Positions 19,018-54,799 of a stretch of 64,000 nt of DNA are shown here, piece by piece (the first letter of the stretch is position 1; every line of letters starts with the position of its first letter). Source of the DNA: Onchidella celtica (Eukaryota; Mollusca; Gastropoda; Systellommatophora; Onchidiidae); assembly GCA_963931925.1 (NCBI GenBank), contig OZ007569.1, positions 6,775,457-6,839,456 of the forward strand, in the 5' to 3' direction. The position numbers and the translations under genes were made by a program. The notes under the pieces are model-generated. The model was not told the DNA's origin. It did no database searches and worked only from the letters and a program-made list of their open reading frames with translations.

Positions 19018-19034
19018 CTGGTCTCCATACAATA

Positions 19035-31492: not shown

Positions 31493-32692
31493 TTAAAATA
31501 CAATGCTACATATACCAATCCCCAAGATCTAATTTATACTCAAATGTATTTGTGAGTTAAGGTGAAGATTTATTTTTGTAAAATAACAATCCATGTTTCT
31601 CATGAAACATTTTCACACAGACAATCCAGGTAACCATTCAGTAGTTACCCAATTAGATCAGTGATGTTCAGTGACGAAAACCAGTCTACATGTGCAGAGA
31701 AACACAAAACAGCTGCTATTACAACTAGTAAATAAAATATTGGAAGTGAGTGCAAGATGAAATAAGCACAAATCAACAGTGGGATCGTACGACATAATTA
31801 TATTTATTCTGCTTTGGATAACAATCATTAGAAAATGGCTGGAGTGCATTTTTAACATGCAAACAATATCACAGTAGCATTTTCACTTAAAACAAATTCA
31901 GATTATTTCATACAGTAAAGCACTAAAGATGTGCATACTTTCTACGATGCAAACTAAAACATAGTATAAACAATATGAATCATAGCCCCTTTTTGGTGTT
32001 TTTTCTTTCAATAATAATTGAAAACTATTAATCAGTTGAAAATTTATGTATTATGTTTATACCTTTATCTGACAGCAGGATACTCGTAATAATCACAAGC
32101 GTTCATGGCAAACAGGATTAACAGAAGTGTTGTACCGGTACTGATGTAATGAAAATAATCTGAAATTGAAAATGTGCAGAATGAATTGCCAACTGACAAA
32201 ATTTTGAGAGCTGCAAAAATGGTTGTCATGTATTATCAGTAGTTTTGATTAAATTCCACATCATGTGGTTGTAAAGAAGGGGACAACATGGTTTTAAAGA
32301 AGAAAAAAAAAGTACAGGAGAGAACTCCAAAGCAATGGAGATTTGCTATTTCTGTTTCTTTACCAATTGGTCTTTAATCTTTGTGATTCAATTTAGAGAT
32401 AACCTGACTTGCTTGAGGTGAAGTGCACAGATTTTGCAGGGATGGAACATTTTTCTAAATCTGTGGATTATACTGTGAAATGAATTTCAACATACTAAAC
32501 AAAAGCATGCTGCAGACATGCACAGAAGTTACAAAAAACAAGAATAATTATGAATGCTTTAAAACTTTATTTTCTCTATACAAACATGACATATTATACA
32601 GATGCAGTTAACGGCTTAAATTTTCATTGTCTGATGTAAGTACCTTGAAGATGCCCAGTTTCTTCTTTCAAAAAAACTCCAGTTGATTGTTT
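31493..32692. other. Region between the piggyBac-like element and the RNF8 3' end
   Basis: Noncoding. Bases 32566-32692 are the inferred RNF8 3' UTR. Nothing else recognised. Confidence 0.4.
32566..32571 (-). terminator. Polyadenylation signal of RNF8
   Basis: AATAAA on the - strand about 122 bases after the inferred TGA stop at 32693. This supports 32693-32730 as the true last coding exon. Confidence 0.6.
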
Positions 32693-34032
32693 TCAGTTTG
32701 GACAACCATTTGCCCAATGGCCTCGCATGCCTGTGGAATAAATAATATAAAATTGTAATGTTGGAGCAAATAAGTCGAAACGAATTGGTGCACTAGCAAA
32801 GGCATTTTTTTCCTCAATTTTTCATATAATGTGTCATCAGCAACCATGATACATGCACAAGCCTAAAAATATATGGAACAACACACAAAACATACTTTTA
32901 ATAGTCAAACTTTCTCTTTCAAATGACTCTGAAGCAGAAGGAATGAAAATCACATAGAAAGCAAATTTTCACCTTAGGGAAAAAACAATGTGAAAACCCA
33001 GAAATACAGAAATTCCCAGAGGAATTAGAGGATTCCCAGCCCTGTAAACCTACTGATACAGGGTGACAAGTTATTTTGCTTCCTTGTCATAGAATGTCTT
33101 TACAGCATGATGTAGCTTCATCATTAATTTCTGTTTTACCTTTTTGTTCCATGTAAATGGCAAGAATGAAAAAAAAATACACCACATGTAGTTACTGAGT
33201 CTAATCTTCATTTATAAGCCCTAGTTATGGATATATACTATGTGCTTTTCAGATCTTCAGCTCAAATGCTCAAACCAAGAGCACTTTATGATGCTGCCAG
33301 CAGGCACATGCCATAAGTTTCGTTTTTCAAAATTTACCATTGGCTTCATATTTACTAAGTATTGTGTTTTCTTTAACTCTATCAATATTTAGTTACAATT
33401 CCTTCTACCACTTTTAAATTCATGGATATTGCAAATAAAAATGGCTTCTGCATGGGAAACAAAATATTCTGTTGAAGACTGAACACAAAAGAAATGGGCT
33501 GAAAATATTCTTATTGTGTTGGTAAGAGCTGAATGATCGGCATTTGATAGTCCCTGATTGGGTCTTATAATATATGACCCGATCACCACTGACAGGGTAG
33601 TGGTCAGAACTGGATGGTCATTGACCAGCAGAATTCATTGCTTTTTTGCACGTCTATAACAAAATGAATTTCAGCAAAAGTCATGAAATTTCAAGTCCGA
33701 GAACAATTTTCGAAATCACAGCAGTTTGAACTTGCTGTCAAGCCATGTAAGACCCCACCACTGCCCTACAGGTTAATTACCACAGTTGTAGCATCTGCCA
33801 TAGCCACCATAAAAAGCATCAGCGTCACCCTCTACAGATTCACTGTCACCATCACTATCATCCATGTAATGTCTGCCACGTCTTCTATAGTGAAAGTAAT
33901 CTTCTTCACTGTCTTCGCTGTTGTTGGAAGAATTGCTCTCATCACTCAGTACTATCATCTCTGAGGCTGTAGTAACTGCTGATGTTGATGATGAGGTTGT
34001 TGGTGCTGTTGCTGATGATGTAGAAGCTGCTG
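32693..34032 (-). other. RNF8: RNF8 tail exons: SUMO-interaction-like motif and CCHC knuckle
   Basis: Exon 12 reads EMIVLSDESNSSNNSEDSEE, a hydrophobic core followed by acids like known SUMO-interaction motifs. It then reads to CYNCG and would stop at TAA 33773 if unspliced. Splicing at the donor G|GTAATT (33781/33780) to the acceptor at 32731-32732 instead gives CYNCGMRGHWANGC, a full CX2CX4HX4C zinc knuckle, then PN and TGA. The emergence of a perfect knuckle across the junction is strong support for the splice. The unspliced end would be a shorter form without the knuckle. Confidence 0.75.
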
Positions 34033-37000
34033 CTGTTGATGGTAAGCAAATGAAAAATTAGTAGTACACGCTTATAATCATATTCATGAGTAGGTTTCAT
34101 GTCTGGCACAACGAAAATAATTTTTTTTCCCCTAATGTTATCCTCCTAGGTCATGTCTCCAAGTACTCATTCTAAACATTTTTATTTGGATTTTCTAACG
34201 GTCACTTTATGAATGCAGACTGCATATTATCATGAAAATCCCGAACCAGAAGTCTTGACCTTTCAGAACAATTATGCCAACCTTCCCTCTCTTCCTCTAC
34301 CCGCAAGTACGACCATCTGAAAATCACAGCTCAATCATTCAGCTCTTACCAACACAATAAGAATATTTTCAGCCCATTTCTTTTGTGTTCAGTCTTCAAC
34401 AGAATATTTTTTTTCCTATATCTACAACCATTATCTGATATATGCTAAGTGCAAATCAGCCATCTAGATGACCACTACAGTAAAGGACACCTCAAAAGGC
34501 AATTATACCCATGCCATGTAAAGGCAAAATGAAACTGTCGCATAGTTACGATTTTCACAAAAAGCAGCACACAAACACAAAACTTCACGGATCACATAAT
34601 GTTTTTCATACATATAATTTTTATAATGTGCATACTGCCATCACTGTCTTGCACTTTACTGGACTGGCCTTTATTCTCAAACCTGGCAGAAATTTTTTTT
34701 TGGGTTAGAAAAAATTATTTCTCATGTCCCCCCAATACTCTGAACACAGGATAGTCCCACAAAATAAGGGAGGATTGGCAGTCCTGTAATTAACACTGCC
34801 AGTTTCAAAACAGGCAAAGACAAACCTGCTGCTGATGCAGGCACATAGGTAGGGGCTGCTGTTGTTGCTGTTGCTGTTGTTGCTCGTGCAGCTGCTGCTA
34901 CTGCTGCCGTGGCCGCTGCTCTGTTTGCTGCTGCTGTTGTTCTGTTGCCTCCTCTCCTCTGATTGGCCCTGTTTCTTGCCCCTCTACGTGGTGCAGTGGT
35001 GGTGGTGGCAGCTGTGAGATTGGTGGCTCCCGCCACTGATGTTGCTGCTGTGACATGTGATGGGCCAGCAACCACACCATCAAATTTGTCTTGCTCAACT
35101 ATGTAGAGTTGACAAGTGCAATCATTGGTTAGGCATGAAATTTATTCTTGAAAGTGAATACATTTTAAGTGCTGAAATAATTTACAATCTTTTAAACTTA
35201 CATCCTTCTGTTGCACCTAGCAACACAGATGTAAAAACAACAGTGCCACTCTAATCTTGGGATTTCATTTGAAAGTACATGTAGAAGGGATGACAGAAAT
35301 CCAAAGAAAGATGAGTGTTTGCCTTCTAGAACTTGTACTGAGGATAATAGCCTAGGAAAAAAAAAAATTAACTTTGTGAAATGCAAATCCCATAACACTG
35401 TGTTGGCATATAAGTACTGTCATGAATACCCAAAGTGAGAGGATGACTGAATGTTTATTCCAATGGGGACACAAAGACACCACTCTAGGAGCATCATGCA
35501 TGAGGTAACATAGTATGGGCAGACAGCCCCTCTAGAAGTTTGGTCTTCTATGTGGATGTCTATATAATTAACACATGGGGACATAACAGTGATTAACACT
35601 TTCTCTGTGTTGTGCAGCTGCATACTAACACTGATATACTGCAGACTTCTGTGAAATCGTGGTAAAAAATTTGGTAGTGAATGAGTTAAAACTAACTACA
35701 TGAAATAAACCCCCTAGGGACCGTTCAAATATGATATAACGCGGCGGGGGGGTCTGGCAAAAATGTGAGGAGGGGGGGGGGGGTGTGTCTCATGGAAAAG
35801 TGATATCACACCTTTTAGCCTACTTCAGTGTATTAGAAATAGATTGAAAACTAAGATTTTTTAAACATTTCAAACTAACTTTCATTTGCTCTCGTGTAAG
35901 TATATCTAGAATCTAGGTTATTTGTGTAGTTGTTGTATGTCAATTTCCATTTGAATACCTACAGTACAGCTATTTCTTTTTCTTCTTTAATACATTTCAT
36001 GCTCCCCATTGCCTACAAGCCTAGATTAGATCTAGATCTTTCCTTCCAGATTATCACAAATCTCTAGGCAATTAGAGAGTTCATATACTTATAGTTATAT
36101 AGGCCTATAGACTATGGCAAAATCCTGTTGTATGTTGTGATTTCTTAGGAATTTGTTTTTAAAGATATAGATCTAGCAAAATGTCTAGGTAGTAGGTAGG
36201 CCCGAAAAAGCGTTGGCACTCTTAGTTTCTTTTACAACTAAATATAGTGTTTTTAGGGATGTTTTAGTTGTGTAATTTAAATTTTGTAATAAAAACTCAT
36301 AAATGTATTTAGATGATTTTATCATGCTGTTTTAAGTCAAATAAGTCAACGCAATAAAGAAAACACTGAATATGCTGAAAAAACTAGATCTCTAAATCCA
36401 TTCAAGAAAACAATAAATTTAGTTGTGGAAAAAAAAGAGTGGCAACACTTTTTGGGGCCTACCTAGCCTTTACCTACAAAAAAGTGTCAGACCTTAAGGG
36501 GAAGTCACTCTGCGGTAAAGCCCCCGATTTTTTTTTACGAGAAATTCTTATCAACAAAGGATTATTTAAATTTCAATAGTCAATTCAGCTCACAATAGTC
36601 CATTGTCTCAGCTATTTCTATGCCAAATATGCCTTTGTGTCTTTAATTTATCAATGCATTTTACTATTTCGAAGTAGTCTAACATTTAACGTATAATGTC
36701 TTATATATTGTCAAATGTGTGATATCACGGGGGGGGGGGGGGGGGGGGGGGGGGTGTGTGTGTGTGTCTGGCAAAAAATGTGAGGAAGTGTGAGAAGGGG
36801 GGGGGGGGGGGGGTCGTCTGAAAATCCCCCAAAAAAGTGTGATATCATATTTGAACAGCCCCCTATGGAATAGTAATCCTTTTTTGTGATTTTCAAATAC
36901 CCCTGATGCTAAGTTTGTATAGGCAGTCAATACTCACTCTTTCTCTGAGCAACTAATTCTGTTCTCCTCTTTTTCAGTTCATCGTTCAGCTGTTCTACCA

Positions 37001-40000
37001 TTCTGTCAATATAGCTGTCCAGAGCAATTGCTTGTAACTGGGATGTGATGGGGGTGCGGCAATTGGGACATTCTTTTTTCACCTTCATCCACTGACTAAT
37101 ACATAACTTGCAAAATACGTGTGCACAGTTCAGAGAAGTTGCCTGCAAAACAAGTTGTATTAATTTATATTACAATGGGAAAATGAAAACAATGCCATGA
37201 TGTACTTTGGGGGGGGGGAAGAATAGTAGTTGTTTTAGATACCAAGGATTTTACAATAATGACACTGAATCATGTTATTTTTTATTCACTAGTGTAAGGA
37301 CCCGTTCAAACGGGTTGCAATATCATCTTGCTGAAATTTACTCAGGCGGCACACAGATTATGTAGATCAAGGTAGAAAACAACGCGCACAATAGGCACAC
37401 AGATTGTGTACATCTAGGTAGAAAACAACTCACAACTGGCACAGTAACACCCGCATGGCCCGTGCATAAGGCAGACGGCACGGAAACTCATGCCTTCAAA
37501 CTTTGAAACGCAACCGGAAGTCTAAAGTCGAAACAAAACAAAGGCAGGAGGGAGGCCATCATTGTTGAGGAGAAAGCATTATTCGATATTTTTAGGCCTA
37601 TTTTCATTTATTACAAACTTATGGTACTTCGCCTTCATGTCAAAGGAATAGACATAGTAGCAAAAAGAACAATCTTTCACGTGTAATTTTTTCAGGTCTG
37701 GGCATTTCTTCCTCGCAGCAGTGAATTTTTTTTCCTTGCTGTTTTTTTATATAGATGTATTAATATTACAGTAATATTTATTAGACAAGATATGGTCAAG
37801 TTACTGTCCTTTCAAAATTTCAGGGAAAGAGATACTGTTTCTCTGATATGAGGTAATAGTAATATGCATCTTACTATAATTGAGCTAAAGGGTGAACCTG
37901 TAAGCAGCTAAAACTTCACGACTACGCCATAAAAAATTATGATACCTGGTGTACCGCATCAATTTTTGATGAAGAGTTACATGGACACATTTATTTTGAA
38001 CCAAAATCAGTCTTTACTATTATTTATATCAAACTTTTTTGAGCCGCAAAAACAGAGGCGCATTTTAATCGGATGGAACCGAAAAGTGTGACCGGAAATT
38101 ATGCCCTTGACCTCTCTTTACATATTGGTGGTAGAATATCGAAGTAGTCACATCTGTGTATTCCTACGTAACTTCGATTGATCATTACATCGAATCCGAA
38201 TGCTGCTCTTAATGTAGCCTAGATCTAGATCATACAGTTGGACTTCCTACGAAGAATCTGCAAGATTTACCTTGCGCTGGGCGGCTAGTTTAATATTATG
38301 CTGCCAAGAAACCGATATGCAGATGATCGTGGCAAGCACAGATAAAAGAGAACTCAAATAACTCTTCTTGAAAGCAGTTTTTCCACGAAACCAAAAATTC
38401 TATAAACACTACTACCATTACACAGTAATATTCTTTGGAAAAATTACTGGTGGGGCATGAGCACAGCAGTTAAAATTCCAGCCATGAAGAATTTTTCAGG
38501 CCAACTTTCACCCATTGTGGCAAGGCACACCGAGTTTTCTAAACTTACTACTCCACTGCATCTGACACCTTTAGTGACTATAGATATAAAGACAAGAATG
38601 TAATCCAACTCTTCAAAGCACACACTTTCAACTTCAAACATGCTAATTTGTAGATCATTATCCAATTACTTGTGAGTCCAATTAAGTTGTCTTGATCCAG
38701 ACTTCGGTGACATGACAGCATTTACTGAATGGGGGACAAGGTGGTCTAGAGGCAAGGTGCTCGCCTCTCATGCCAAGGGTCCCGGGTTCTAAACCTGGGC
38801 AGTGCAGGCATGTTGGAAAGTGGATTTTTCTCATATTTTCAAGACCCTGGTCCTATTGGGGGGTAGGATCGAGTAGTTCTTGGAAATTGGATTTTTCTCA
38901 TATTTTCAAGTCCCTGGTCCTATTGGGGGGTAGGATCGAGTACCTAGTCTTCTCGGATAAGGACGAAAAAATTCGGAGGGCCCGTGTGCACGTTAAAGAT
39001 ACCTTGGCAGTTGGAAATCGTAAAGAGCAGGCCGAAAGGCCGCTGCCCGGGCAAAATTGAAATTAATAGATTAAAATTTATCCATATCACCCCCCCCCAG
39101 AACAAGAAATAATAAAACAAGTAAAGTGAGGTGTAAATGCCAAGGGCAGCGAACCTCCTAAAATAAAGACCTCAAATCCATGGGAAACCCTTCAATGTGA
39201 CCAGAGAAAGTGAATACTCATATGACAGGCACTTGTTGACAGGAAGAGTTCCTGGAGAAAAGTCCTATACTTATCTTGGCTGTTACATTTATTACACCAA
39301 TTACAGACAAAACTGAGACTGGTCATTCTAATTTTTGAAGCAAGTCATTCCAAAATGAGGCAAATTACTAATGATTCCTCTCCATGTGGAATTGCTCATC
39401 TCATGTTTCCAATGATTGGTCAAGTCCCAACATGTTCCAATCTCAGAGGCTGAAGGAGATTAAAAGTAAATCTGCAAGGCCTACTCACCTTTATGAAGAG
39501 CTCATTGCAGATAGGACACTGTAACTCCATTTCCATTAGGTCTACAAAATTTGATAAAACATCATCTCTTGCCTTCAGTACTTGGAGTTTGGCTGTTTCA
39601 CTTTCTTCTTTTGTTTCATTGAGTTGAACTTCAAGTACTTTTTGTTCCATATCTTTTTTCTCTATAATCTGATGATGAATTTGACATTAAAACCATAAGG
39701 GGTAATTATTCTCCAAGGACAGACATAAAGTAATGGAATATAAAACAGCATTTTGTCTGAACTTCACAAATCTGAAACAACATACATCATGTGACAATAT
39801 GTGACTTAAAACATAAGACTCAAATATATAAAATCACAATCCAAATTCACTTGCACATTAATTTACATATCTGCTACATACACATAGAGCTTTCAGCAAT
39901 TTCTTAGTTTCTGCTGAGCCAAATATTTTGATTACCTGTTCATATAATTTTCGAGATCATTGGCATTGTAATCTGATGCTAATGATGACTTTCACATACT

Positions 40001-43000
40001 AACCTACGCTCATACATAAATACCCCATGATTTCAGGTAAAATTATAACTAGAAAACAGGGTTGTCGTTTTCTTGAACATGGTACAAGTAGCCCAGCCTA
40101 CAGTATACATAAACAGAAACAACCTTCAAACTTTCTTACCTTTTCTAAGTTTTGTTTTTGGTCTAATAACTGCTGTTCAAGTGCCTTGTTTTTTTCTTCC
40201 AAGGCCTTTTCCATCTCTTTTTGCAGGCTGTCTTCAACCTAAAACAAGATGGCAACAATTTCCAAACATTGCTCATGTCAAGATAATCTATTTTTGAGTT
40301 TCTGAGGCTTCCAACAGAAATGAGACTTCGAAATACTGATCTTAAAACTACAGCTACCGCAAAGCGATAAATGATCTCAATTTACTTCTCAAAGTATACC
40401 ACACTAACAGAAAGCTTCCTTCTGCCCCAGCATAAAAGTGATATTTCTTAACCCAATAGTTTATAAAGTCAAATTCACATGTACTGACATGATGATAAAA
40501 TGACAGTACTGAGAACTGGAGATTCCCAGAATACAACTTGATCAATTGTCTATAAAAACAACACAAAATTTACCTGCTTCTTTTCAATTAGTAGAGCTTC
40601 CTTCTGAGAAGTCAACTGTTTCATGAGGGTTTCTTCACGCTCTTTCACATTTGCTTCAAGTTCTGCTTGCATTTTTTGTCTCAACTCTTCTTTTTCCCTC
40701 TCCAGTTGCATCTGAGAAAAAAATATTAGATTTCATAGATTGAACATTACTTTAACCAGATATTTCTGGGATAGCTGTTAACACATGCAAATAAAAACAA
40801 AAACAGTGGAATTTGGTTACAATGAGAGGTCACGTTCCACCAAAAATGTCTCGTTCTACCCGAAGTCTCGCTATTCCAGGAAAGAGCCTAAAAGGCAAGG
40901 CAAAGAATTAAAACACTCCATTATTTGCAGGACATGCTAACAAGGGAGGTAACCATAAAAATAGTGGCGGATTTTAATGTCTACCTCCCTTGATCGCATG
41001 TCCTGTACATGAACGTACATTTAATTTCAATGTGACGGCAGATCTCAGCCTAGACTTCGGTGTTTGTTTTTTTTTTGTCTTTCTGTGCTAACAGGAGACA
41101 TGTTCCGATCAAAATTACGAGAGAGTCAGATGCAAAAATTAGAGGCAGACATTTGTTTCCAGTGGTTTCCCATGCTGTATCATTCAAAGTATGGGAACAG
41201 ATTAGCCACGCGTTTGTGACACAGGGAGTGTAGGCATGTGGTCACGAAGCCTGGTGCAGACAAAGAGCATTATGCCGCACAGCGATCAATTATGATCGAA
41301 GACCGTTTTAATATAATAATTATCGCATATCACAGGTGGTGACCAGAGAGTGCACGTGTGTGACGAAGCTACAGGGTTGTAGCCTTCATGGCCTGCATTT
41401 GCCTCAGTGAGTGATGAGACATCAATGAGTGACGGTCACTAGGGAGAGAAAGCATACTAGGCCTAAGCGAGAGATGGCCAGGTGGGGCCACAATTCGCAA
41501 GGCAAGCATGTACTAACAAACAAAGAACGATGCATGTTGTTATTGTCTAAATGGACTGACTCTCAACATGCTGTTCTGCTGCCGCCCCCACCATTTGCCG
41601 TATGCACTGAAAATTAATTCTCTCACTATAGCAGGTGCTTTGATTATCGATTGCTGTTATTTGGGTATTTCATAATATAACTCATATAGTGGAAAAAGCG
41701 GGGATTTAAAATGTTCTTGCTATTGGCAAAGGTCTCATTATTAGCAGCGTCATTAAACATGATGGTCCACTGTATTATCATAAATCAACTGACTAATCAT
41801 AATATTCATGATCTAGAACATGCATGGGCAACCATTCATTTAATAATAGCCAGACCTGAAAAATATGAGGATGAAGAGGGCCAGATACTCCATTTCACAT
41901 TAAAAGCCTTTCTATAAATGGCATGTTATTTATTTGGATGTTGATTTTTAAAGACAAACTTCACACACCCATGTGTTTTATATTTCTTTTTTTTTACCAC
42001 TTAGAGACCTGCGTGTAAAGTTAGTTTCAATCTACCTCATTTGAGGTTCTTTCTTTCATCCTTTCACAAACACAAACTTTAAAATTGTCTAATAAAGCAG
42101 AAAGCGGACAGAATTTTTTTATTTTCACATGGAAGACGATCAAGGTATCGTCTCAAGTGACATAATACGCATTATTTCAAGTATCGAGAACTCCAGTTGC
42201 CAGGAACACTTGAAAACACTCTGTCAAACCCAGCACTTTGTGGCATGCTAGGCAGGACCCCCTGCACTTTTGATGGCGCTTCATGACATGCCAGACAATA
42301 ATGGGTGTAACGAAGTGCCGCGTAATGACCATCCACTGGCCTGTTCGACCGGTCCACCTTCCTGATCTATTGTTCCAAGTTATGTCTCAGGCTACCTACG
42401 GGTAGAGCAATTATCTCTGACCCGTCCACCTAATACCCCAGCGTCCGAGTTTGGCCACCGTAGAATCTTTGTGCACGTTTTTATGGCTCACGAACTCGAG
42501 CTAGCTAGAACCTCCCAGTTTCCCCCTCTGTAATTTTCTGTAATTTTGAGTTTCTGTATATATTCCAGAGCAAATCTGGAGTCGTCAGTCCGCTTGCGAT
42601 AGACTCACTGCGAGGTCCTGCTCGTGCGAAGCAGTGTACCTGCCTGTAGAACTCAGGCGTGTATTTACAGTGTCTATTAAGGCCTGTATTAAAATTTAGC
42701 TCCTGTGGAGCGAGGTCCTGCTCACGTAGAGTGGTGTACCTGTCTGTCGTTCTTATTGTAAGACACAGACGTATATTTAACATAGCCTATACGGTGTGTT
42801 AAGTTAGCTCGTGTATAGAGCGTTTATGACTTTCAAGTTCGCGTAGGACTTAGTCATAGTAAATTACTGTATTTCTTGCTTTGTCAAAGCACGAAATAAG
42901 CTCAGTTAGAGCGGCGTGTGAGTCTAAGCTTAAAGTTAAAGTTAGCTCATGTACGCGGTGCATATATTGCACATATCTTAAGTTCTTAAGGAACTCGTTA

Positions 43001-46000
43001 ATTTCCAGTGTTGTACTCGCTTCTTGTGGCAGTGTTAGACCTGTAAGTCTCAGCGTGACCAGGCAGGCTTCTGTCCGTGTGTAGAGCATTGCACCCGGCG
43101 TTTCTGTTAATTGTACAGAACAGCGGGAAGGCTAGAGGCCAAGACCATAAAGTAACCCCCTGTTTTAAAGTATCCTGTGCATATTGTTAGGACATTTCGA
43201 TCCTGTTGTGTATCCTGTGACCAGAGCCTTATCAGGACATTAGTTATACATAGTTCTAGTAGTCATCTTATGGATGTGAACAGTGCTTTTATGTGGAGTA
43301 AGGACATATTTGTAATTGAGTGTATCCTGTAGCTGTGCCCAGGCCAGTATTGACAGTGTGACCTGTAGTGAATTTAAGAGAACATTATCTTTGTGGAGTC
43401 CAGTTTCCCAAGAGGACAGGCATTCTTCGGTTTAGGACCATCATCGTCAAGTTTACAGATTCAAGATATAGGACAAGTTTTAGTAACATTTTAGTTAGAG
43501 TAATTTTGGAAGAGTGTGGATATATTCTGTGTGAAACGTTCTTTGAGTGCAGAGCTGGTGAGATATACAACTACCTTTTTATCTGTGTTTTAGTGTAGCA
43601 TACTATAATCCATTTTATTGTCATTTCATTGCATTAATCAGAAACCTCTTCTTTCAGGGTAGTTAGTTTAGGTTATTGTTGTCACGTTTACTATCTTTGG
43701 ATCATTGCCATTTTAATATCTGTATGAAATATTTGTCCATCTCTTCTGACATGCTATTTAGACTATTTCACTAACATTAATTAAGCCCCCATCCCACGTG
43801 TCCCAATAAATTTATTGTGTGTATGACTGTAAAGCACTTGTTTCCATCGGTGTGTTGTAGTCCCTCATAGGCCGGAACATCCCAAGGTTGCAAACCGCAT
43901 TTGCAGTACCGTTGCCTGCACCTGCGCTTTGTGACAGTGGGTTAATCCTTGAAAACCATTTTGATAACGTAATATTTCTTATTTGATGCCTGCTATTGCA
44001 AACAATCGCAAGTTTCCAAAAATTTAAACCAATGTATTTTAGGTTAATTATTTAGCCCCACGTTTACGTGGAGTTACACAATTCAGGTCTCACATGAAAC
44101 ATCAGAATTGTCTGGAATACCTGTTTGTCTTGCATCTCCATTAGAATTGTCTGCTCTTTCTGTTTCAGTTCTTCTACTTCTTTTGCCTGGTTTTCTTTTT
44201 CTTGTCGTTCCCGTTCCAGTTGTTCTTGTACCTATAAGAGAAATACTTTGAACGTCAATTTTCATTTCACGTGATACAAAATGTCAAAGTTACAGCCACA
44301 AGATATTTCTAAACCTGAGTGAAAGTTTTCCATCCCATTTGCAAATTTTACTTTCTTACTCAGGTCAGCCATAGAATCTTCAGTCTTCAGCTTACAGAAA
44401 TTTTTGTCAACAGATGAATCGGTGCAATGCTGTAATCTTTCTAGCATAACTATACTCATTTTATTTTTTTACCATTCAAATTAAAACTGGTATAGTCTCA
44501 TTATGAGCCATTCTTTTCTATTCATTTATGAGAAATGGTTAAAATTTCATGTGACCTATTCTCTCTAACTTCACTTTAAAGGAATGTGTAAAATTGCTTG
44601 TGATATTTCATATACTCTTACCTCTTTCTGTTTAGCTTCTTTCTCCTTCAGTAATTTTTCCATCTCTTCTAACCTAGCCTGGTAGTCAGCTTCTCGGGCA
44701 GCTTGCTGTTTTTGTGATTCTTCCATTCGCTGACGCAGTTGTTTATTGGGTGAAACTTGCTGACTTGTTGTGTCTCCAACCTAAGAAAACGAAGACTTTT
44801 CAAACTGATGGAAAATCCTGGGGAGGGTTTACATTATAGCTTTTCTCTTTCTTACGTCTAAGGGATATGGAATGTTTTGCTAGATGTGGCCAATATCTTA
44901 CAATTTGCGCATTTCTGCACACGTCTACAATCTGTGTAACCATTGGTCAGAGACAGATAATGAATTCACTTGAAGAGTGCATGTTTCAAATTCAAAATAC
45001 ACTGTGTAGAGTTTTACCCTTTCAACAGCTTTCTTCCTTTTCACTTCTGTGTCATCATCTAACGATTCTCCATAACTTAAAGTGTCTCTGTCCTCTTTCA
45101 CTGAAGGATCAGTCTTCAATCTCTTGTTACTTTTCTTTTCAATGCGAACCTACAAGGAAAGACAAATCATGAATAAGCCAATGACATCCCTATTTTATAC
45201 CTTAACATCAAATTGTGCAAATCAAAATCAAACCCTAACTTCATTTTCCTTCAAATGAACAAGTATGAATAAGGGCACCTATATCAAGCATACCTCAGAA
45301 ATGTAAAGATGTCATTTGTAAGTATAAGACTCACTCAGGTACAAGATATTCTGGTACAAGATGATCTCATATCTTTACTATTTGTGGACTTGAGATTTTT
45401 CGTTGCAAAAGGCTTCTAAACCACTCAACACTCAGACTTCAAATTTTATATGGTGCATCAGAATGGATGTAAGGGTGCACAGTTTTTAATAGAAGTCTCA
45501 AATCGGTGTTGTTTTTTTTATTGGAAATTTGTTGTTTCGCCATGATTTAGATCTATTTCGAGTCATGGTTCGCCATTTTAAGGTTACGTTATCACTTCCT
45601 GTGATGTGTTCACCATCAAACACACTAACCCGTGCGCAAATCATGCTGTTGTACGGGATGCGCAGTGTGTCAACTCACAAAGGCAGAGCAGTAAGACTTA
45701 TTTAAAAACAAACAAACAAAAATAAAATAAACAAATAGTAACAGGCCAGATGAAGCAGGTCCATAATAACCACTCAGAACTGAAACTATATTCAAACCGA
45801 TTTATCCCGGGGGACCTCAGCTAGTTAACATATAATTCAAAAGAAGCTGATCCATATTTATTGAGGGTCCATTAAAGTAATACTCCATTTGTCTTACTGC
45901 TGCCCAGCTTTTCAACTGCTCCAGACAAGCAAGTATTTTCAGATTCAACTGAATGGTCTAAACCTGAAACACATTTTTCATCTAAAAAAGAATTCAAGAA

Positions 46001-49000
46001 GCCAATGGCATTGAACATAAAATGTCAGAAAAGGCACAGAATCTTTTGACTTGACTCTACAACATAAGAAGAGGCTTTTAAAAACAGCAACTCTCTTTAA
46101 CTTTCCATAATCTGTCTTTGATGTGGTTTCCTGAAGTGAAGGACTACACTAATAAAAAAAGTAATATGGACACTTCATTCATTGATTCATATTAAATCTT
46201 CAATTTCAGCACAGATTCTGTACTTACTCTTAAAGAACTGTAGAATCTGTATATAAAATCAGCAGGAGTATCTGCTGTGACTGGCACACCAAACTGAACT
46301 GTGTCACCTTCTTTAAGAGTGTAAGGGGTGAGTGGGGTTAACTGTTGTCCGTTGATATAAATTCCATTTAAACTCTGTGATGAGGAAAAATACAATAAAA
46401 TATTTTGAAATTTCACAATGTACTTATACATGTATTTCATACATAGTTCTTTTTTCTTTTTTCACACATATATCATATTGCCTGTCAGATTAAGCTGTAT
46501 TATACAGAAAGTGTTAAAAAAAAAACACGCATGCTTTGATCTTATTCCTTAAACAACAAACTACTGACCTTAATTTCCTAAATCAAATATTTCTCCATTG
46601 GAATGGCTTGAAACCCCATATTAACTAAATAATAATAATGAAGATCATTTATATAGAGACCAATCCAAACAGTTTGCTGTACAGGCACTTTACAGAAGAT
46701 CTTGTCCTCTCCATCTGCAACTCATCCTCTCTTTCTCTCTCTCTGACTCTATATATCTATCTCAAACACAATCTATTGCATACACTAGTCTTATGCTAGA
46801 CATACATTGTATACATAGACACACACACACATTACACACCAAAAGACAGAAACTAAACAACAATAAAACTGTAAAAAATAAAATTAAATGAATTGAGAAA
46901 ATAAATGGATTGGGAATGGGACTTCACTACGGCAAGTGTTTTTTAAAATTAACTCAGAGCATGTAACATCATTAAGGCACACAAAGTCCAGATTTAGAGG
47001 AAGCAGAATACAGATTAAAGGAAAACAAAAATACACTTTTCCTTTACCCTCCCACTTTGAAGTTATCAACCAGACCCAGAATTCCAAGCCATTATGTTCA
47101 TTCTCTGCAGTCAAAACAGATACCATTGCTTTGCTTTGAAAAGTGAATGATTATTTAAAGAAGATTTACTCACCTTGTTATCAGAAATGGACCATGTTTT
47201 ATCTTCTTGCTGTTTTATGATGGCGTGGCATCGAGAGATCATGTTGTTCAATATGGCATAGGTAACATCCCCTGATCTTCCTATCGTTATCTGGGAAGAA
47301 AAATCAATTTTCTGAATTTTTTATAACAATGAACAAACCAAAACTGAAACTAGAGTGAAACTGTAAACTCCACTTCTGAAATATCTTTAAAAACACTTAC
47401 ACTGCTACATTTTCACGCTTTCCTGAACCATCCTCAACAGGTGAGAACAAAAATGTAACAATGTACTCAATCTTCAAAAACAGGAATGTTTTAGTTTTTC
47501 TAAATTTTATCTTTGAGTTTGATCAATTTTGGGTTTTTTTAAAAGTTAACCCTCGTCCTGCGGGAGGCCACTATATCGGCCTGCGGGGGGCCAATATATT
47601 GTATAGCAACGCTGCTCCTCGTGTTTTGTTTATTCGGTTGCTGTGACTATTGTTTTTTTCACATTTTTTTTTCCACACGATTTTTGTGTGTTTATCTACC
47701 CTGTCACCCCTACTATGTCTAACAAAATGGCATAGTCCGATTACGTTTATTATGATGCAACTATTCATAACTATTGGTCATACTCATGTAACAGTACTGA
47801 CGGTCTGAAGTTCGAACTGGGGAAAATCCTGGGGAAACTTTTGACTTTGATGCTGGTTGTCGTCTGTAGATGTGAAATGAGAAGAAAGGGGCCATCTGCA
47901 TATCTGAGAAACTGTTCCATGTCTGTAATGATCAATTTTGATGTAATTAGGCATGCTGCATAAGGGCATCTGTCTGTCGGTTTTTCATCAGGGAAAACTG
48001 GGAGAAAATGACCGACTTCGTTGTCTTTATCTGATGTAATTAGAGAGACTAGCCGATCCGCGCAAGATAAATCTTGCAAATTTTTCTTGTACCAAGCCCA
48101 GCTGTATATCTACATGTAGATCTAAGTCGCATTATACACTTGGATCCGATGCAAAGATGAATAAATCTTTTTGTTACACCACGATTCCTTGCAGAATACA
48201 CCGATGTGATAAAACGACTTTCGGACGGAAATGTGTAAATATAGTGACGTAGAGCGCAGTTTCCCGTCACATTTTTCGATTCTACCCGATGAAAATGCGT
48301 CTGTTTTCGCGGCTCAAAATTTTAAAAATATAATTAATAGTAAAGACTGATTTTTGTCCAAAATGAATGTGTCCTCGTATCTCTTCATCAAAAATTGATG
48401 CAGTACACCAAGTTTCATGACTTTTGATGTCGTAGACACGAAGTTTTAGCTGCTTACAGGTTCACTCTCTAGCTCAATTATATAGTAAAATATTGTGTCG
48501 CTTTGATTAAACCACTTTTCAGTACATGTATACAAGTAGGCCTACTCTACGAGCTGGAAATCTAATCTCTTGCTAAAACTAACATCATAGTATGTGGAAA
48601 CTTTACATAGATGGAGGAGGGAGAAGGCAATGCCGCGATACACGTGGTTAGTAAATTAAGCGCCTGGCTTAAAAAAATAATTTGCTCACCTGAATGGCCT
48701 GATTTAGAGTCAAAAAAAATAAAAAAAGCACCGAGGTCTTGGGAAAAGGACAAAACGTGAGTTAAACGGCATGTACATGCAGAAAATTCTAGATTATGGG
48801 CCTTCTATTTAACAACAGAAGTTACTGCATATCATCACAGGTACTTTATCCAAATGTTATATAGGGGTCACTGACGATTTATGCACCACTATTGTTATTG
48901 CATCCTAAAGTAAACATGATACACGGGCTGAAAAGGAACTGATTGACCTGACCGCCGAGGTTATCGGCAACACGCAAACGATCGGCTGACTAGCTATCCC

Positions 49001-52000
49001 CGCACAGGGCGTTACGTTTTTGAAAATGATGAAGGATGAGATACTCCTCTATTTCACAGAATTTTTAAATTTCTGGAGTACCAAACACAGTGAAATAACT
49101 TTAAAATGTGAAAACAATCAAAAAGATTAAGCCAGGCGTCCATGGTTGGAGTGCACTGTTTGCTTTGCAAATGAGGTGTCTACCAGGTATGCAATAAAAA
49201 AAAACTCTATAATTAAAACCGGTTTGTTGTGCTACAGAATTCTTTCCGGGCTGTTTGAAAACAAAATGGCGGTGCCAACACCCACAAAAAAGATTTTGTA
49301 TTTGATTTCTGATTGCATGCTATTGGGGTTGATTGTGAAGCCTCCAATGTCATAAAATAAGCGGATCTGCTATGACAGATGTATAGTGTCACAAGTGCTG
49401 TTTATCAAAACCATGCAATGAACAATATCAGGGTTCATACACTTTTGACTCCAAAAATTTCCATAGGTTTTCATGGATAGATTTTCCATAGGCTCATTTG
49501 GAATTTCCAGAGCTAAATGCAGTTTTTCGGCACGAATTTCCCATACTTTAAATCTCTTAACAAAGGCTAAAAAAAATATGAATATAACTCAAACAATTTA
49601 GAACTGACTGATAAAATTAATAGGAATTTTCATTAGTTACTAAATTACGTACATGTACATGTATATAATATACCCAAATTAATTATACTTATGTGCACAC
49701 AGAGTTTCATGTTACTGTCTTTGTAAATATATTCAATCTAGTCTTAAAACTTTTGATGATTTGGTTATTTGTATTGTGGTGTGAGATACAAAAAAACTGT
49801 TGGAATTTCCCTTTAAAACACCCTGCTTTCAACTTCTTTAAATTACAATTCATTTCACATGTCAATTTGGAATAGGACTCTCAGAAAAACTAAACTTCTT
49901 AAACAGACCTAGTCTGAGTTGGGAATCAAATATATACACATTAAAAAGAAGCCTGGCACTATTTATTCCGTACATCATGATGAGTAAAGTATGTCTCGTG
50001 TGAGGTTCAGGGGTACTAGTATGGATGCATTCTAAATAAACATACAGTATTCTACAGTTTTAAACAGTAAAAGCATTTTTTTTTTTTTAACACTGAGCAG
50101 TACGATACCCATTATTAACAAACTAGATGTCCTACCGGGCATTGCCCGGAATAAACAATCACGTGATTCCCCACTCCCCCCTCTCTCTCTAGTATAATAA
50201 AAGTAATAAACTACAGTCTTGCTTCAGAACTCTTGCGCACCACAACATTACGCATCAGACTGAACGCTTGATACGATTACTTTTTATGACATGCACGGTA
50301 CTATAATATTATGAAACAAACATGCAAAAATACAGATGTTACATAGCAATAAACATTGTTTTTTTTTTTTAAATACATGCTTGAAGTAAACAACTTTTAA
50401 TTATAGCCATCATCTTCCTTATCTCAATTGCCACTTTCCTGCCAAATTTAAGGCCTGAAGAGTGTATAGTTTGGTCAGTTAGTCATGCCAAAGGTTGCAA
50501 GTTACTGAAATATATAATAGATAGACTTGTCTCTGTGAATCATGATATAGATTTAGCGTAATGGAATTTAAAAAAAAAAAAAAGTCAATTTGGCCCCATA
50601 TGCAGGATAGAAAGGCAAACAATCTACTATGCCATGTAAGAATTTCCATGAATAATATCAGTTAGTCTATGAAGTTATTTTGACAACATGTATAGATCCG
50701 AAAAAATTGATTTGGTAATAGCAAAAGGATAGCCCCCCCGGCATCGTAATTTACGTCGACCTACCATACAGCAGTAAAATTCGTGTACTAACCGGTATAC
50801 GGGGCATTTTGTACACGTACCTCAATTACAAGGCCAATTTTTGGAAGGGGGGGGGGGAGGGGAGGGGCACTTTAGACGTGAGTGCGATATTTTACAAATT
50901 TAATTATTTAATTCATTCCACCAACACTGTCGACTGCTCAAATTCGGGTGTGCTCACTGTCGTATGTTAAATACCACCGGAGAATGAGCAAACGGATGGC
51001 CATTACACACGTGGACGGAACGAGCGTGGCAATGGATTTTATATACAATTATGCAATATCGATTTAATCGTGTTTACGGGAAACTGAGACAGTCAGCGCC
51101 GACAGGTCTACGAAGGTGTCCCGCTACATTGTAAGCACTTCGGTCATTCATCGGTAGGTGAGATATTACATAAGGTGTGGAGGAGAGCTGAGAAGGATGC
51201 AGGACCGGAGACGAGTCTACGTACGGGTCGGGCCAGCGCGGGTTTGAGAGAGAAAGAGAGGAGAAAAAAAAGGTGCGGGTAATCACGGCTTAAGGGTTGT
51301 AGACTGTCATTTGCAGTGTCTATCAGTATTGAAGCGCAACTTTCCAATTATCGCATAGCATCGCATTATAATAGATTGGGCTGACCAGATTCCTTTTAAG
51401 TATCAGCGCAAAATCAGAGGCAGGGATCGTATGGTCCATGGATTTTTTGGCTCGAGCTCGCACCTTTTTTTTTTAAAGGGGAGTCTTGACGACTTTTTAA
51501 AAATCCATAGTTTTTCCATAGGTTGTGACTGATTTCTCAAATTTAATAGATTTTCAATATTATGAAATCCGAAATCCAAAATTCCATAGATTTTCCAGAA
51601 ATTCCATAGGTGTAGGAACCCTGGAACATGTAGAGTCAGTGAGTTAATGCAACAAAAAATGTGTTGAGTTTTTAGGATATTATCCATTACTTTGTGCATT
51701 CACTTTTACAACAAGTCTTCTTCTTCTTCTTTTATAGTTGGTTCGTCTATAAGACGATTCCCCAACTGCACTATAGTATATGCGACTCAACGTCGCTCCT
51801 CTGAGGCTAAAAACAGGGTAAAATCTTACATAGATGTTAAGACCATTTAAAAATATATTAGTTGTATAAAGTCTTTTGTTATATATAACTCTGGTATAAA
51901 TATCTCTTGGTTTCCAGATTGTGCACAGAAATACAACCCGCACTTTAGTTACAATGGTAGCTGCAACGGATAATAATGTTCTTAAATTCATTGTCGAAAG

Positions 52001-54799
52001 TCGTTGCAGACGATAGTGTTTGGACTTCTACCGGGAGGTTGTTCCACATCCTGATGACATTAGGGTAAAAAGAATAAAGATGGCTGTTAACCCATGAGCT
52101 TGGGATGTTATATTTTATATTATTCCTTCTGTTGCCTCTGGTATTAATGGTGAGGTGGTTCAGTGGGATATGGATATTTCCTTCCCTGCCTTTATAAAAT
52201 ATTTTTACTTTGTTTTTTGCTCTCCTCTCTTCTAATGGTGTCCACTCGAGGTCTCTCATCATTTTATTTACACTACTACTTCTAGTATAGTCATTTGTCA
52301 CAAAGCGGGCAGCTCTCCTCTGGACCCTTTCCAGTTGGTCTATGTTTATTCGACAGTGGGGGTCCCAGACACTGCAGCCATACTCTAGGGAGGGCCTCAC
52401 AAAGGTGTTATAGCATTTTTCTTTTACTTTCCTATCGCAGTTAGAGATGTTCCTTTTTAGAAATGCTAGTATACCGTTTGCTTTGTTACATGTGTTATTA
52501 ATGTGTTGGTTCCATGTAAGTTTTCTGTCCAATGTAACACCCAAATATTTAGCCTCATGTGTTTCGCTCAATTTTTCGTCGTGTATAAAGTAGCCTGAGG
52601 TGATGTTGTGTTTTTTATTTGAAATTCTCAGGACTTGGCATTTATTGGGGTGGAATTCCATACGCCAGTCCCTCTCCCATTTTTGTAGACTGTCTAGATC
52701 TTTCTGTAAAATTTCCGTATCTTCTTTTGAGTTTATTGTTCTATAGAGGAGGCTATCATCAGCAAACAGTCGTAATTTAGTGCCTGGAGAGATCTTACTT
52801 GGCATATCGTTAATATAAACTAGGAATAGTAAGGGGCCCATTACAGTACCCTGGGGTACTCCCAAGAGAACAGCTGCAGGATTGGATGACTTTCCATCAA
52901 CGACGACTATCTGTGTTCTATTTTCTAAGAAAGACTTAATCCACTTCAAAGTACTGTTTCTAACTCCATAGTGGTTTAGTTTAGTCAAGAGACTAGCATG
53001 GTGCACTTTATCGAAGGCTTTACTGAAATCTAATAAGATGGTATCAGTCTGCCTGTTGTTATTCAAGTTATTAACAAAATCATTGCAAGTTGTGACCAGC
53101 TGGGACTCACACGACCTGTGTTTTCTAAAACCATGCTGTACATGTGTTAAAACTGAGTGTTTCTCGAGATGCTTCATGATGCTGGTATGCAAGATATGCT
53201 CTAAAAGTTTACAAGATATTGATGTCAGGGAGACTGGTCTATAATTTTCAGGACTAGCTCTATTTCCTTTCTTAAAAATGGGTACTACATTTGCTTTTTT
53301 CCACTCTTCCGGTATTTTTCCTTGTTCAATTGAAGCTCTAAATAACAAAGTGTAAACAGGGGCAATTTCCTTGGCACAGAGTTTCAGTAATTTGGCGGGA
53401 ATTCCATCAGGCCCTGTAGCTTTATTTTCGTTAAGGTTTTCCAAAAGTTTCAGTACTCCATTTTCTGTGACAAACATTTCATCCATATCCGGCAGTTTGG
53501 CATCACTCAGCTCTCCCGAGAAGACTCCCCCTGGGTCGGAAAAGACCTTACAAAATTGAGTATTTAAGATATTGGCTCTTTTTTGGGCATCTTGCTGTGG
53601 GTGCCCTCTCTCATCGTTCAGTGCGGCTACTCCTAAGTTTTCTTTATTTTTACTTTTCACATATCTCCAATGTTTTTTACTGTTATCAGATGAATCACTT
53701 ATCATCTCATGGATATAATTATTATGAGCTTTCCGGCATTCTTTCTGTGTCAATCTTTTAATTTCTAGATATTTGTTTTTCACTCGTTCGGAGTTGCACT
53801 GTTTCATTTTTTTGAACCATTTATATTTTTTCCGAACTAATCTTTTCGTTAAAGTATTTATCCAGGGTTGGTGAATTTTTGTGGATGACATTTTTGTTGG
53901 GACATTTTCCATGATCATGTTCAAATTTAACTTGATACAGTCCCAGAGTTTGTTTGCGTCAGTTTTTGAAGAGTGGTATTTCATGAAAAAAGTGCCAAAA
54001 GTTGCTGCCTCCCTTTTCAAATTATTTTCGTCTGTCTGATTCCATAGGTAAATCTGTCGCCTAATAGGCCTTTTCTTAAAGGGTTTCAGTTCTGAATCAA
54101 TCTGGACTATGGTTTCAGTTCTGAATCAATCTGGTATTGTGCCTTCTACAAGTGCTTATGAATTAAAGAAGGCTCGTTGTAATTGACACACTAGATCAAA
54201 GTCTCCACAATCGCGAAGCATCCTGCAGCTTTTACACTATTTATCATGATTTCTAACTTTAACAGCAATGGCTACTTCTCAACACTGCCACGTGCCTTTA
54301 ATTTCGATGCACACACTAAATTTGTTGCCAGGACAGTGTGCACAAATGCCCTGACTTGATGTCACAAAACCCTCGCACTCCATCATAATTTGTGACACAC
54401 ATTTCCTACATGAGACTTTGGTCTCCTCCCTATCTCACACAATTTGGTCATTTCTTAGTCCTGCAAACTTGGTTTCAGTTTCAGTTCATACAATTTCCTC
54501 ATTTTTGCCATTTGTCAGAGTTGAACAGAAGAGGCGCTACACCTGGCTGGGCCTCCACCTATGATTGAGAATGGCTCATATATGTATTTCTATAGGAGTA
54601 AAATCTGATAACGAGGCAGTCTGATGAAAAACCTTGTATTTTAAGGGAATGTAATCAATCAATGTTATTGCCCACATGAATTATTGTTGATCGCTCTGCC
54701 TCTCCAAGGGATCCTCACCTGATCTCGATCTAGTTTAAAGATTCTGTATTTCTTCACATTTTCTCCGATTCTTAGAAGGCACGGCACTTCTTCAGTCAT
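32693..54799 (-). CDS. RNF8: RNF8-like E3 ubiquitin ligase (FHA, coiled coil, RING, zinc knuckle)
   Basis: Thirteen exons, read downward: 54799-54719, 47290-47174, 46374-46228, 45149-45018, 44780-44622, 44231-44121, 40711-40574, 40238-40140, 39668-39489, 37142-36938, 35098-34826, 34032-33781, 32730-32693. They join without phase error to 643 aa. Residues 30-110 form the FHA domain: ITIGRSGDVTY, MISRCHAIIKQ, SDNKSLNGIYING, EGDTVQFGVP, with the GR and SRxH phosphothreonine-binding residues kept. Residues about 116-375 are disordered, then coiled coil rich in Lys/Glu/Gln. The C3HC4 RING is split by an intron: CPICNELFIK / ATSLNCAHVFCKLC, then CPNC. This is the RNF8 layout; human RNF8 recruits BRCA1/53BP1 to DNA breaks by ubiquitylating histones. 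Unlike human RNF8 (about 485 aa) a tail of some 175 residues follows: Ala/Thr/Arg-rich, then MIVLSDESNSS with acids, then CYNCGMRGHWANGCPN. An acceptor just before the ATG implies a 5' noncoding exon. Confidence 0.9.
35717..36863. mobile_element. TA-flanked TIR element with long poly-G tracts
   Basis: Left end GGGACCGTTCAAATATGATA and the inverse right end GGGGGCTGTTCAAATATGATA match over about 21 bp, with TA duplications at 35715-35716 and 36864-36865. Both ends carry a subterminal CTGGCAAAAA(A)TGTGAGGA motif and G runs, including 26 G at 36729-36754 and 17 G at 36797-36813. No transposase frame. It is nonautonomous and lies in the RNF8 intron between 35098 and 36938. Confidence 0.75.
37348..37440. 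repeat. Two-copy 46-bp tandem repeat
   Basis: Units beginning GGCACACAGATTRTGTA at 37348 and 37394, both continuing into GGTAGAAAACAAC. Confidence 0.65.
37869..38288 (+). mobile_element. Short nonautonomous Helitron, copy 1
   Basis: Begins TCTTACTATAATTGAGC and ends GGCGGCTAG, with A at 37868 and T at 38289, as Helitrons require (5' TC, 3' CTAG, insertion between A and T, no target duplication). A short stem GCAAG...CTTGC lies about nine bases before the terminal CTAG. It is 420 bp with no Rep/helicase. A second copy in the other orientation is at 48049. Confidence 0.8.
38731..39075 (+). mobile_element. tRNA-derived SINE with internal 67-bp duplication
   Basis: A tRNA-like head has box A TGGTCTAGAGGC and box B GGGTTCTAAACC, followed by a body in which a 67-bp unit (GGATTTTTCTCATATTTTCA to GGATCGAGTA) occurs twice (from 38821 and 38888). 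The 3' part contains GTGCACGTTAAAGATACC, a motif I recall from several invertebrate SINE families. The head has mismatches that rule out a functional tRNA. Confidence 0.75.
40804..41772 (-). mobile_element. Pogo/mariner-like element, family 2, near full length
   Basis: CAGTGGAATTTGG at the left and the inverse of CAGTGGACCATCATG at the right, with TA after the right end. The truncated copy at 10242 matches its right 220 bp in inverse. An imperfect inverted repeat (40928-40951 and 40982-41005, CAGGACATGC ... GCATGTCCTG) suggests a second small insertion or hairpin inside. Mapped in the RNF8 intron between 40711 and 44121. Confidence 0.7.
42165..42370 (-). pseudogene. Possible piggyBac transposase C-terminus relic
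   Basis: On the - strand one frame reads RHFVTPI, then KRHQKCRGSCLACHKVLGLT and ECFQVFL, similar to the Cys-rich C-terminal finger of piggyBac transposases. Very short and isolated, so weak. Confidence 0.3.
42375..43940 (+). mobile_element. LTR-like noncoding block (fossil, uncertain)
   Basis: A GC-richer block starting near TGTCTCAGG and ending near TTTGTGACA, with a TATA-like TGTATATAT near 42556 and a polyadenylation-like AATAAATTTATT near 43805. It holds two direct repeats of about 100 bp starting GCGAGGTCCTGCTC at 42610 and 42710. No internal coding region adjoins it. A solo LTR is the simplest reading, but target duplications are not clear. Confidence 0.35.
45898..45954 (-). other. Doubtful extra RNF8 exon
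   Basis: On the - strand, an acceptor ATTCAG and donor GCA|GTAAGA frame a 51-base piece that keeps phase 0 with both neighbours (peptide LNLKILACLEQLKSWAA). A different frame of the same stretch looks more like protein (HSVESENTCLSG) but breaks phase. Either a facultative exon or chance. Confidence 0.25.
46628..46900 (-). mobile_element. LINE/SINE 3'-end fragment with (ATT)n tail
   Basis: On the - strand GTAAAGTGCC ... CTATATAAATGATCTTC then (ATT)n, like the piece at 16541. TC- and CA-rich simple repeat adjoins. Confidence 0.5.
47550..49015. mobile_element. Nonautonomous piggyBac-like element, copy 2, carrying a Helitron
   Basis: TTAA at 47546-47549 then CCCTCGTCCTGCGGG. Collinear with copy 1 (30374-31492) up to GGGCGTTACG near 49010, where the right terminus is lost. 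It is interrupted at 48049-48490 by a Helitron. About 85-90% alike to copy 1 by eye. Confidence 0.8.
48049..48490 (-). mobile_element. Short nonautonomous Helitron, copy 2, nested
   Basis: On the - strand it runs from TTTTACTATATAATTGAGC to GATCGGCTAG, with hairpin GCAAGATTTATCTTGC about ten bases before the end. Comparison with piggyBac-like copy 1 shows insertion exactly between A and T of the empty site AGAGATATTG, with no duplicated bases. That is the Helitron hallmark. Confidence 0.85.
49433..51623. mobile_element. Possible hAT-like element or pair of related ends
   Basis: CAGGGTTCATACAC at the left and the inverse CAGGGTTCCTACAC at the right, both followed by TTCCATAG-rich sequence. 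CAGGG ends suit hAT elements, but the 8-bp flanks do not match clearly. The interior shows no transposase, and a CCGGGCATTGCCCGG palindrome lies near 50144. Confidence 0.4.
51715..54135 (-). mobile_element. 5'-truncated LINE with long open reverse transcriptase frame
   Basis: One uninterrupted frame (at least 691 codons, 54020-51945, open upstream to about 54130) carries the reverse transcriptase: NKATGPDGIPAKLLK, VVPIFKKGNR, NYRPVSLTS, HGFRKHRSCESQL, DFSKAFDKVHH, GVPQGTVMGPLLF, LRLFADDSLLYR with the catalytic FADD, and HPNKCQVL. The C-terminus has RVQRRAARFVTNDYTRSS. The style is CR1/jockey group. The expected upstream AP endonuclease is missing, so the copy is 5'-truncated and incapable alone, yet the frame has no stop, so the insertion is fairly young. 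The 3' end has a GAA-rich tail at about 51715. It lies in RNF8 intron 1, same strand. Confidence 0.85.

Follow-up and report, generated by a model that had tools for sequence, protein, structure and literature searches.

The window analysed here, a stretch of 64,000 nucleotides from the gastropod Onchidella celtica, contains a 13-exon RNF8 gene on the minus strand (54799..32693), whose product of 643 aa consists of an FHA domain, a long charged helical region, a RING and then a 187-aa tail. The tail contains an Arg/Gly patch, a SIM-like motif and a CCHC zinc knuckle which is split by the last intron. The sequence itself establishes the gene model, its domains and the signature of the knuckle. 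The preferred reading, with a probability of about 0.5, is that this is an RNF8 orthologue to which nucleic-acid binding and SUMO-assisted recruitment have been added.

The RNF8 gene and its identity

RNF8 is characterized by UBC13-dependent K63 ubiquitination at MDC1-marked breaks. The features of the gene in the window are as follows.

54719..54799, minus strand: exon 1, probable coding (MTEEVPCLLRIGENVKKYRIFKLDRDQ)
47174..47290, minus strand: exon 2, first half of the FHA domain (PF00498 with exon 3; human RNF8 FHA, 2pie)
46228..46374, minus strand: exon 3, second half of the FHA domain (PF00498 with exon 2; human RNF8 FHA, 2pie)
45018..45149, minus strand: exon 4, linker (GT-AG, phase 0)
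44622..44780, minus strand: exon 5, charged, helical and coiled-coil-like (coiled coil judged by eye)
44121..44231, minus strand: exon 6, coiled-coil-like (by eye)
40574..40711, minus strand: exon 7, coiled-coil-like (by eye)
40140..40238, minus strand: exon 8, coiled-coil-like (by eye)
39489..39668, minus strand: exon 9, end of the helical region and first RING half (LQCPICNELFIK; human RNF8 4orh and 4ayc, E 2e-28)
36938..37142, minus strand: exon 10, second RING half and C-terminal helix (PF13923 over the joined RING; alignment with human RNF8 stops at the junction with exon 11)
34826..35098, minus strand: exon 11, tail with the Arg/Gly-rich patch RRGARNRANQRRGGNR and an Ala/Thr-rich stretch (open frame; phase 1 to phase 1)
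33781..34032, minus strand: exon 12, tail with a Ser/Thr/Ala repeat, the SIM-like MIVLSDES, two acidic runs, RRRGRHY and CYNCG (open frame; SIM pattern)
32731..33780, minus strand: intron 12, 1,050 nt, splitting the knuckle (gtaatt...ttccacag)
32693..32730, minus strand: coding part of exon 13, second knuckle half MRGHWANGCPN and stop (PF00098 over the joined sequence)
32566..32571, minus strand: AATAAA polyadenylation-like signal, about 120 nt past the stop

All 12 introns are of the GT-AG type, and introns 10 to 12 are each in phase 1. Exon 1 lies 7.4 kb upstream of exon 2 and was chosen because it has the strongest donor (CAG/gtgagg, the slash marking the exon boundary) among seven phase-0 ATG candidates that passed the cut-off when 16 kb upstream of the FHA exon were searched; this choice and the presumed likeness of its peptide to the N terminus of human RNF8 make the assignment probable. 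The AATAAA after the stop is weak evidence by itself, because four more are found in introns 10 and 11 (35459, 35146, 34675 and 34186).

The assignment to RNF8, already made in the first-pass annotation, is well supported by comparison with solved structures. The FHA domain of exons 2 and 3 gives 71.8 bits against PF00498 (E 6.2e-20; in the query the domain was preceded by 10 residues of intron origin, which fall outside the match at 11-78), and its best matches among all solved chains are human RNF8, that is, 2pie (E 3.4e-15) and 2csw (E 3.9e-15). Its segments ITIGRS, MISRCH and DNKSLNG align with VTVGRG, MISRNH and DNKSLNG of the human protein, and by this alignment the phosphothreonine-contact residues, which we take to be GR, SR and the N of SLNG, are all present. 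The RING gives 41 bits against PF13923 over the joined exons 9 and 10, and together with the preceding helix it matches human RNF8 (4orh and 4ayc) with an E value of about 2e-28, again among all solved chains, the identity from the RING to the end of aligned human RNF8 being 42/80. Next after the RNF8 chains comes a RING2/BMI1 chimera (E 4.4e-13), and CHFR does not appear by name among the 44 matches listed from solved structures. A search with the 68-aa RING peptide of exon 10 left 0 of 9 pattern matches confirmed in viral contigs and 0 of 110 in genome contigs; it covered viral and prokaryotic DNA and is uninformative on animals.

Other features are also found in the window. Intron 1 of the gene holds, on the same strand, a 726-aa open frame at 51948-54125 (minus strand) with a reverse transcriptase match (PF00078, 132 bits), which is probably a non-LTR retroelement. 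A further reverse transcriptase match (PF00078, 33 bits) is located at 27883-28257 (minus strand), and the frame at 27270-27833 (minus strand), with no Pfam match above the cut-off and a C2H2-like end CHLCGRICRAKIGLISHMRSH, perhaps belongs to the same element. The 269-aa open frame at 18244-19050 (minus strand), which contains MDELVQDLTTALEET, has no Pfam match and presumably resembles GPATCH2. Intron 9 includes a tandem pair at 38813-38942 (67-nt unit, 1.9 copies, 96% match). Moreover, the open frames at 30657-30935 and 47774-48109 (both minus strand) are similar by eye (xEVGHFLPVFPDEKPTDRxPYAAC...), the former having no Pfam match, and we suggest that they represent a repeat family dispersed in the window.

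The tail, its split zinc knuckle and its SIM-like motif

Exons 11 to 13 add 187 residues beyond the RING. Human RNF8, arranged as FHA, coiled coil and RING, aligns with the present protein over the FHA domain, the RING and the C-terminal helix, and this alignment ends at construct residue 146 of 149, which corresponds to the exon 10/11 junction. The solved human construct presumably reaches the natural end of the protein, and therefore human RNF8 should end about where exon 10 ends here and be without the tail. The first-pass statement that vertebrate RNF8 ends soon after the RING and has neither motif thus holds for the human solved fragments, which are the sole vertebrate comparison. The tail carries the Arg/Gly patch, an Ala/Thr/Ser-rich linker, MIVLSDESNSSNNSEDSEED and the basic RRRGRHY. 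After a further acidic run, GGYGRCYNCGMRGHWANGCPN forms the extreme C terminus. Exon 12 encodes ...TTASEMIVLSDESNSSNNSEDSEEDYFHYRRRGRHYMDDSDGDSESVEGDADAFYGGYGRCYNCG and ends with the bases TGT G/gtaatt. The penultimate exon reads as previously described, with MIVLSDES, acidic residues and then CYNCG.

The true frame of exon 11 has no stops, against 1 and 3 in the other two frames, and that of exon 12 likewise has none, against 4 and 11. Open stretches of these lengths occur at 4.1% (exon 11) and 4.4% (exon 12) of intron positions, and the openness of the tail exons helps a little in supporting a coding function. In codon score per codon, measured with a training set that is short and helix-rich, the true frame of exon 11 is second of three (0.037, against 0.24 and -0.43), a value reached by 0.13% of 3,000 intron windows, and that of exon 12 is last of three (-0.11, against -0.02 and -0.02), a value reached by 8.7% of intron windows. 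The part of exon 12 after the repeat scores -0.125 in the true frame, with no stops. In both exons the best reverse-strand frame outscores the true frame (0.07 in exon 11 and -0.053 in exon 12). Codon usage is accordingly not supportive of the exon 12 frame. In addition, the Ala/Thr/Ser stretches are partly repeat-like in the DNA, with an imperfect GCT-type repeat at 34855-34941.

The knuckle CYNCGMRGHWANGCPN is an exact CX2CX4HX4C, which forms once the 1,050-nt intron 33780-32731 is removed. The acceptor and coding sequence of exon 13 (32730..32693) read ...tattccacag/GC ATG CGA GGC CAT TGG GCA AAT GGT TGT CCA AAC TGA, and the joined product gives 22.8 bits against PF00098 (zf-CCHC; E 9.2e-5), the Pfam cut-off being 20.8. 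The earlier proposal that a donor and an acceptor about 1 kb apart complete a perfect CX2CX4HX4C before the stop is confirmed by this join and this score. As a null, the end of exon 12 was joined to each AG on both strands, apart from those within the first 20 nt or the last 60 nt of the strand. The bare CX2CX4HX4C resulted at 8 of 3,776 minus-strand and 8 of 3,699 plus-strand AGs, and the full signature C..CG..GH[WIYFLV]A..CP at 1 of 3,776 and 0 of 3,699, respectively, so that of 7,475 AGs none but the proposed acceptor completes the full signature. This uniqueness is somewhat flattered because the full signature was defined after the sequence was seen, and a fairer yardstick is the bare motif, which about 0.2% of AGs yield. 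Among AGs with a pyrimidine tract, the bare and full forms were given by 2 and 1 of 318 on the minus strand and by 1 and 0 of 329 on the plus strand; such a tract accompanies the proposed acceptor, which lies 1,050 nt downstream of the donor. When tract-bearing AGs are limited to those within 1.5 kb of the donor, one of nine gives the bare motif and the same one gives the full signature, and within 5 kb the counts are 2/32 and 1/32. Judged from the sequence, the spliced knuckle is very probably real.

A search of solved structures with the last 72 residues listed 23 PDB chains, all with E above 0.04: 15 of retroviral nucleocapsid or Gag, two of Air2, one each of RECQL4 and Mpe1 and four of azurin, the last being plain chance matches. 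Retroviral nucleocapsid knuckles bind nucleic acid. Among solved knuckles RECQL4 comes closest, with CFRCGGMGHWASQCP (2mpj) against CYNCGMRGHWANGCP here, a weak match with E 0.043; the RECQL4 knuckle prefers RNA over DNA according to a review (PMC8637615). The possibility that the knuckle is a remnant of a retroelement gag was also considered and rejected, because its halves lie in two exons of the RNF8 gene whereas gag would be intronless.

Two further C termini may arise by intron retention. Retention of intron 12 would read CYNCGN-stop and lose the knuckle, as the first-pass annotation had anticipated, and this form should escape nonsense-mediated decay because its stop has no downstream junction. 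Retention of intron 10 (donor 36938) would read AQRKSEY-stop, giving about the length of human RNF8 and a possible second natural C terminus. Both isoforms are possibilities read from the genomic sequence.

The SIM-like string MIVLSDES matches, once in the 643 aa, the relaxed pattern [PILVM][ILVM].[ILVM][DSE]{3}, which follows SIM predictors and permits Met in the first position. In shuffled sequences the pattern appeared in 0.1% for the tail (n=5,000), 0.18% for the last 72 residues and 6.3% for the whole protein. Strict V/I/L four-residue SIM patterns miss MIVLSDES; the places where they do match, residues 8, 339 and 356, all precede the tail. Three of the four core residues are I, V and L, which fits a looser published definition of the SIM (PMC12751080), and a phmmer search of the PDB with the 30-aa segment around the motif gave no match up to E 10. 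The SIM of DAXX is IIVLSDSD, and phosphorylation of its serines by casein kinase II raises the affinity for SUMO-1 up to 30-fold (PMC8616421). Ser and acidic residues follow the hydrophobic core in both, and the differences here are Met in the first position and SDES in place of SDSD. Because of this closeness to DAXX and the right acidic and serine context, MIVLSDES is a plausible SIM, and for its actual binding to SUMO we would give even odds. SIMs are described as common in repair proteins (PMC4826866).

Proposed role of the tail and alternative explanations

In the preferred reading, the FHA domain would read phosphothreonine, the helical region would dimerise and the RING would build ubiquitin chains. 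The FHA domain should bind the ATM-phosphorylated TQxF motifs of MDC1, and invertebrate MDC1 is described as keeping TQxF repeats (PMC11014961). The three post-RING exons would then add a flexible tail acting as a second recruitment arm, in which the RG patch and the C-terminal CCHC knuckle would bind RNA or single-stranded nucleic acid. The single SIM, probably phospho-regulated, would have a weak affinity for SUMO-rich damage foci and help, in a SUMO-dependent way, to retain the protein at sites such as breaks, where SUMO conjugates accumulate. The tail would thus add avidity, and RNF8 would be held at damaged chromatin beyond the FHA contact. Splicing in vivo, the binding of zinc, nucleic acid and SUMO and the biological effect are what we infer in this proposal. 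A more far-reaching form of it, which appears unlikely to us, is that RNF8 in this lineage reads phosphothreonine through FHA, SUMO through a phospho-regulated DAXX-like SIM and RNA or single-stranded DNA through the RG patch and knuckle, with retention of the last intron giving a stable form that lacks the knuckle, so that splicing would switch RNF8 between a form tethered to nucleic acid and a free one, mammalian RNF8 being a reduced form.

The knuckle might instead be a protein-protein or ubiquitin-binding module, with the tail helping to choose substrates or ubiquitin chains. In the same pathway, HERC2 reportedly uses a zinc finger for SUMO binding (Danielsen 2012), and the acidic runs adjoining the knuckle would disfavour nucleic acid; however, retroviral nucleocapsid and Gag account for most of the chains listed, the knuckles of nucleocapsid and RECQL4 bind nucleic acid, and the RG patch lies within the same tail, so this explanation is rather unlikely. 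A true RNF4-like SUMO-targeted ubiquitin ligase acting on SUMOylated damage proteins, the layout suggested by the first-pass annotation, is distinctly unlikely, even though a RING and a DAXX-like SIM occur in one protein. The literature offers parallels, since human RNF8 is given as the nearest relative of the plant protein STUbL2 (PMC11014961) and a SIM is attributed to ICP0, which may be a STUbL (PMC12751080). RNF4, however, has four closely spaced SIMs (PMC12751080), and several clustered SIMs together with a RING, and a preference for SUMOylated substrates, characterize its class, whereas here there is one acid-flanked SIM-like motif, at which the strict SIM patterns fail. The RNF4-like label is withheld because the SIM-like motif is single, which weakens no other claim made here, and the SIM may serve recruitment alone.

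That the tail is coding and yet largely neutral, disordered and repeat-expanded, with the SIM-like string due to chance and only the knuckle, or nothing, under constraint, would be consistent with the repeat-like Ala/Thr/Ser coding stretches and the uninformative codon usage. Against this, a full knuckle split by an intron is improbable by chance and therefore has probably been kept by selection, and we regard a largely neutral tail as distinctly unlikely too. Less probable still is an error of the gene model, in which exon 12 is not spliced to exon 13 and the protein terminates close to exon 10 (as QRKSEY-stop, with the intron retained) or to exon 12. It would draw on the moderate donor of exon 12 (GTG/gtaatt, 5.8 bits by a human matrix), the near-human length of the intron-10 read-through and the AATAAA signals in introns 10 and 11, but the donors of exons 4, 6 and 11 score lower by the same matrix (5.2, 4.5 and 5.5 bits), and no other AG examined completes the full knuckle signature.

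Relation to known proteins and significance

Several known proteins share parts of this architecture. CHFR combines FHA and RING and has a C-terminal PBZ finger for poly(ADP-ribose), and is not known to have a CCHC knuckle or a long coiled coil. RBBP6/Mpe1, with a knuckle and a RING in one protein, is engaged in mRNA 3'-end processing and has a DWNN domain and no known FHA; the Mpe1 knuckle is a weak PDB match to the present one (E 0.38). DAXX, whose SIM resembles MIVLSDES, is not known to be a ligase, RNF4 is not known to have an FHA or a knuckle, and RECQL4, with the knuckle nearest to the present one, is presumably without a RING. RNF4 is a RING ligase whose SIMs are placed N-terminally (PMC12751080), and the protein here has a RING and a candidate SIM. 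RECQL4 is described as a helicase with an internal knuckle (PMC8637615).

A limited search of the open-access literature found no description of an RNF8 with a SIM or a zinc knuckle, and a CCHC domain may already be present, without comment, in existing annotations of RNF8 from invertebrate genomes. The RNF8/RNF168 ubiquitin response at breaks is known largely from mammals, in which RNF8 is known to have only FHA, coiled coil and RING. Should the combination of RNF8, knuckle and SIM prove widespread in other animals, the mammalian protein may have given up a direct connection to SUMO and RNA, which other proteins would now supply.
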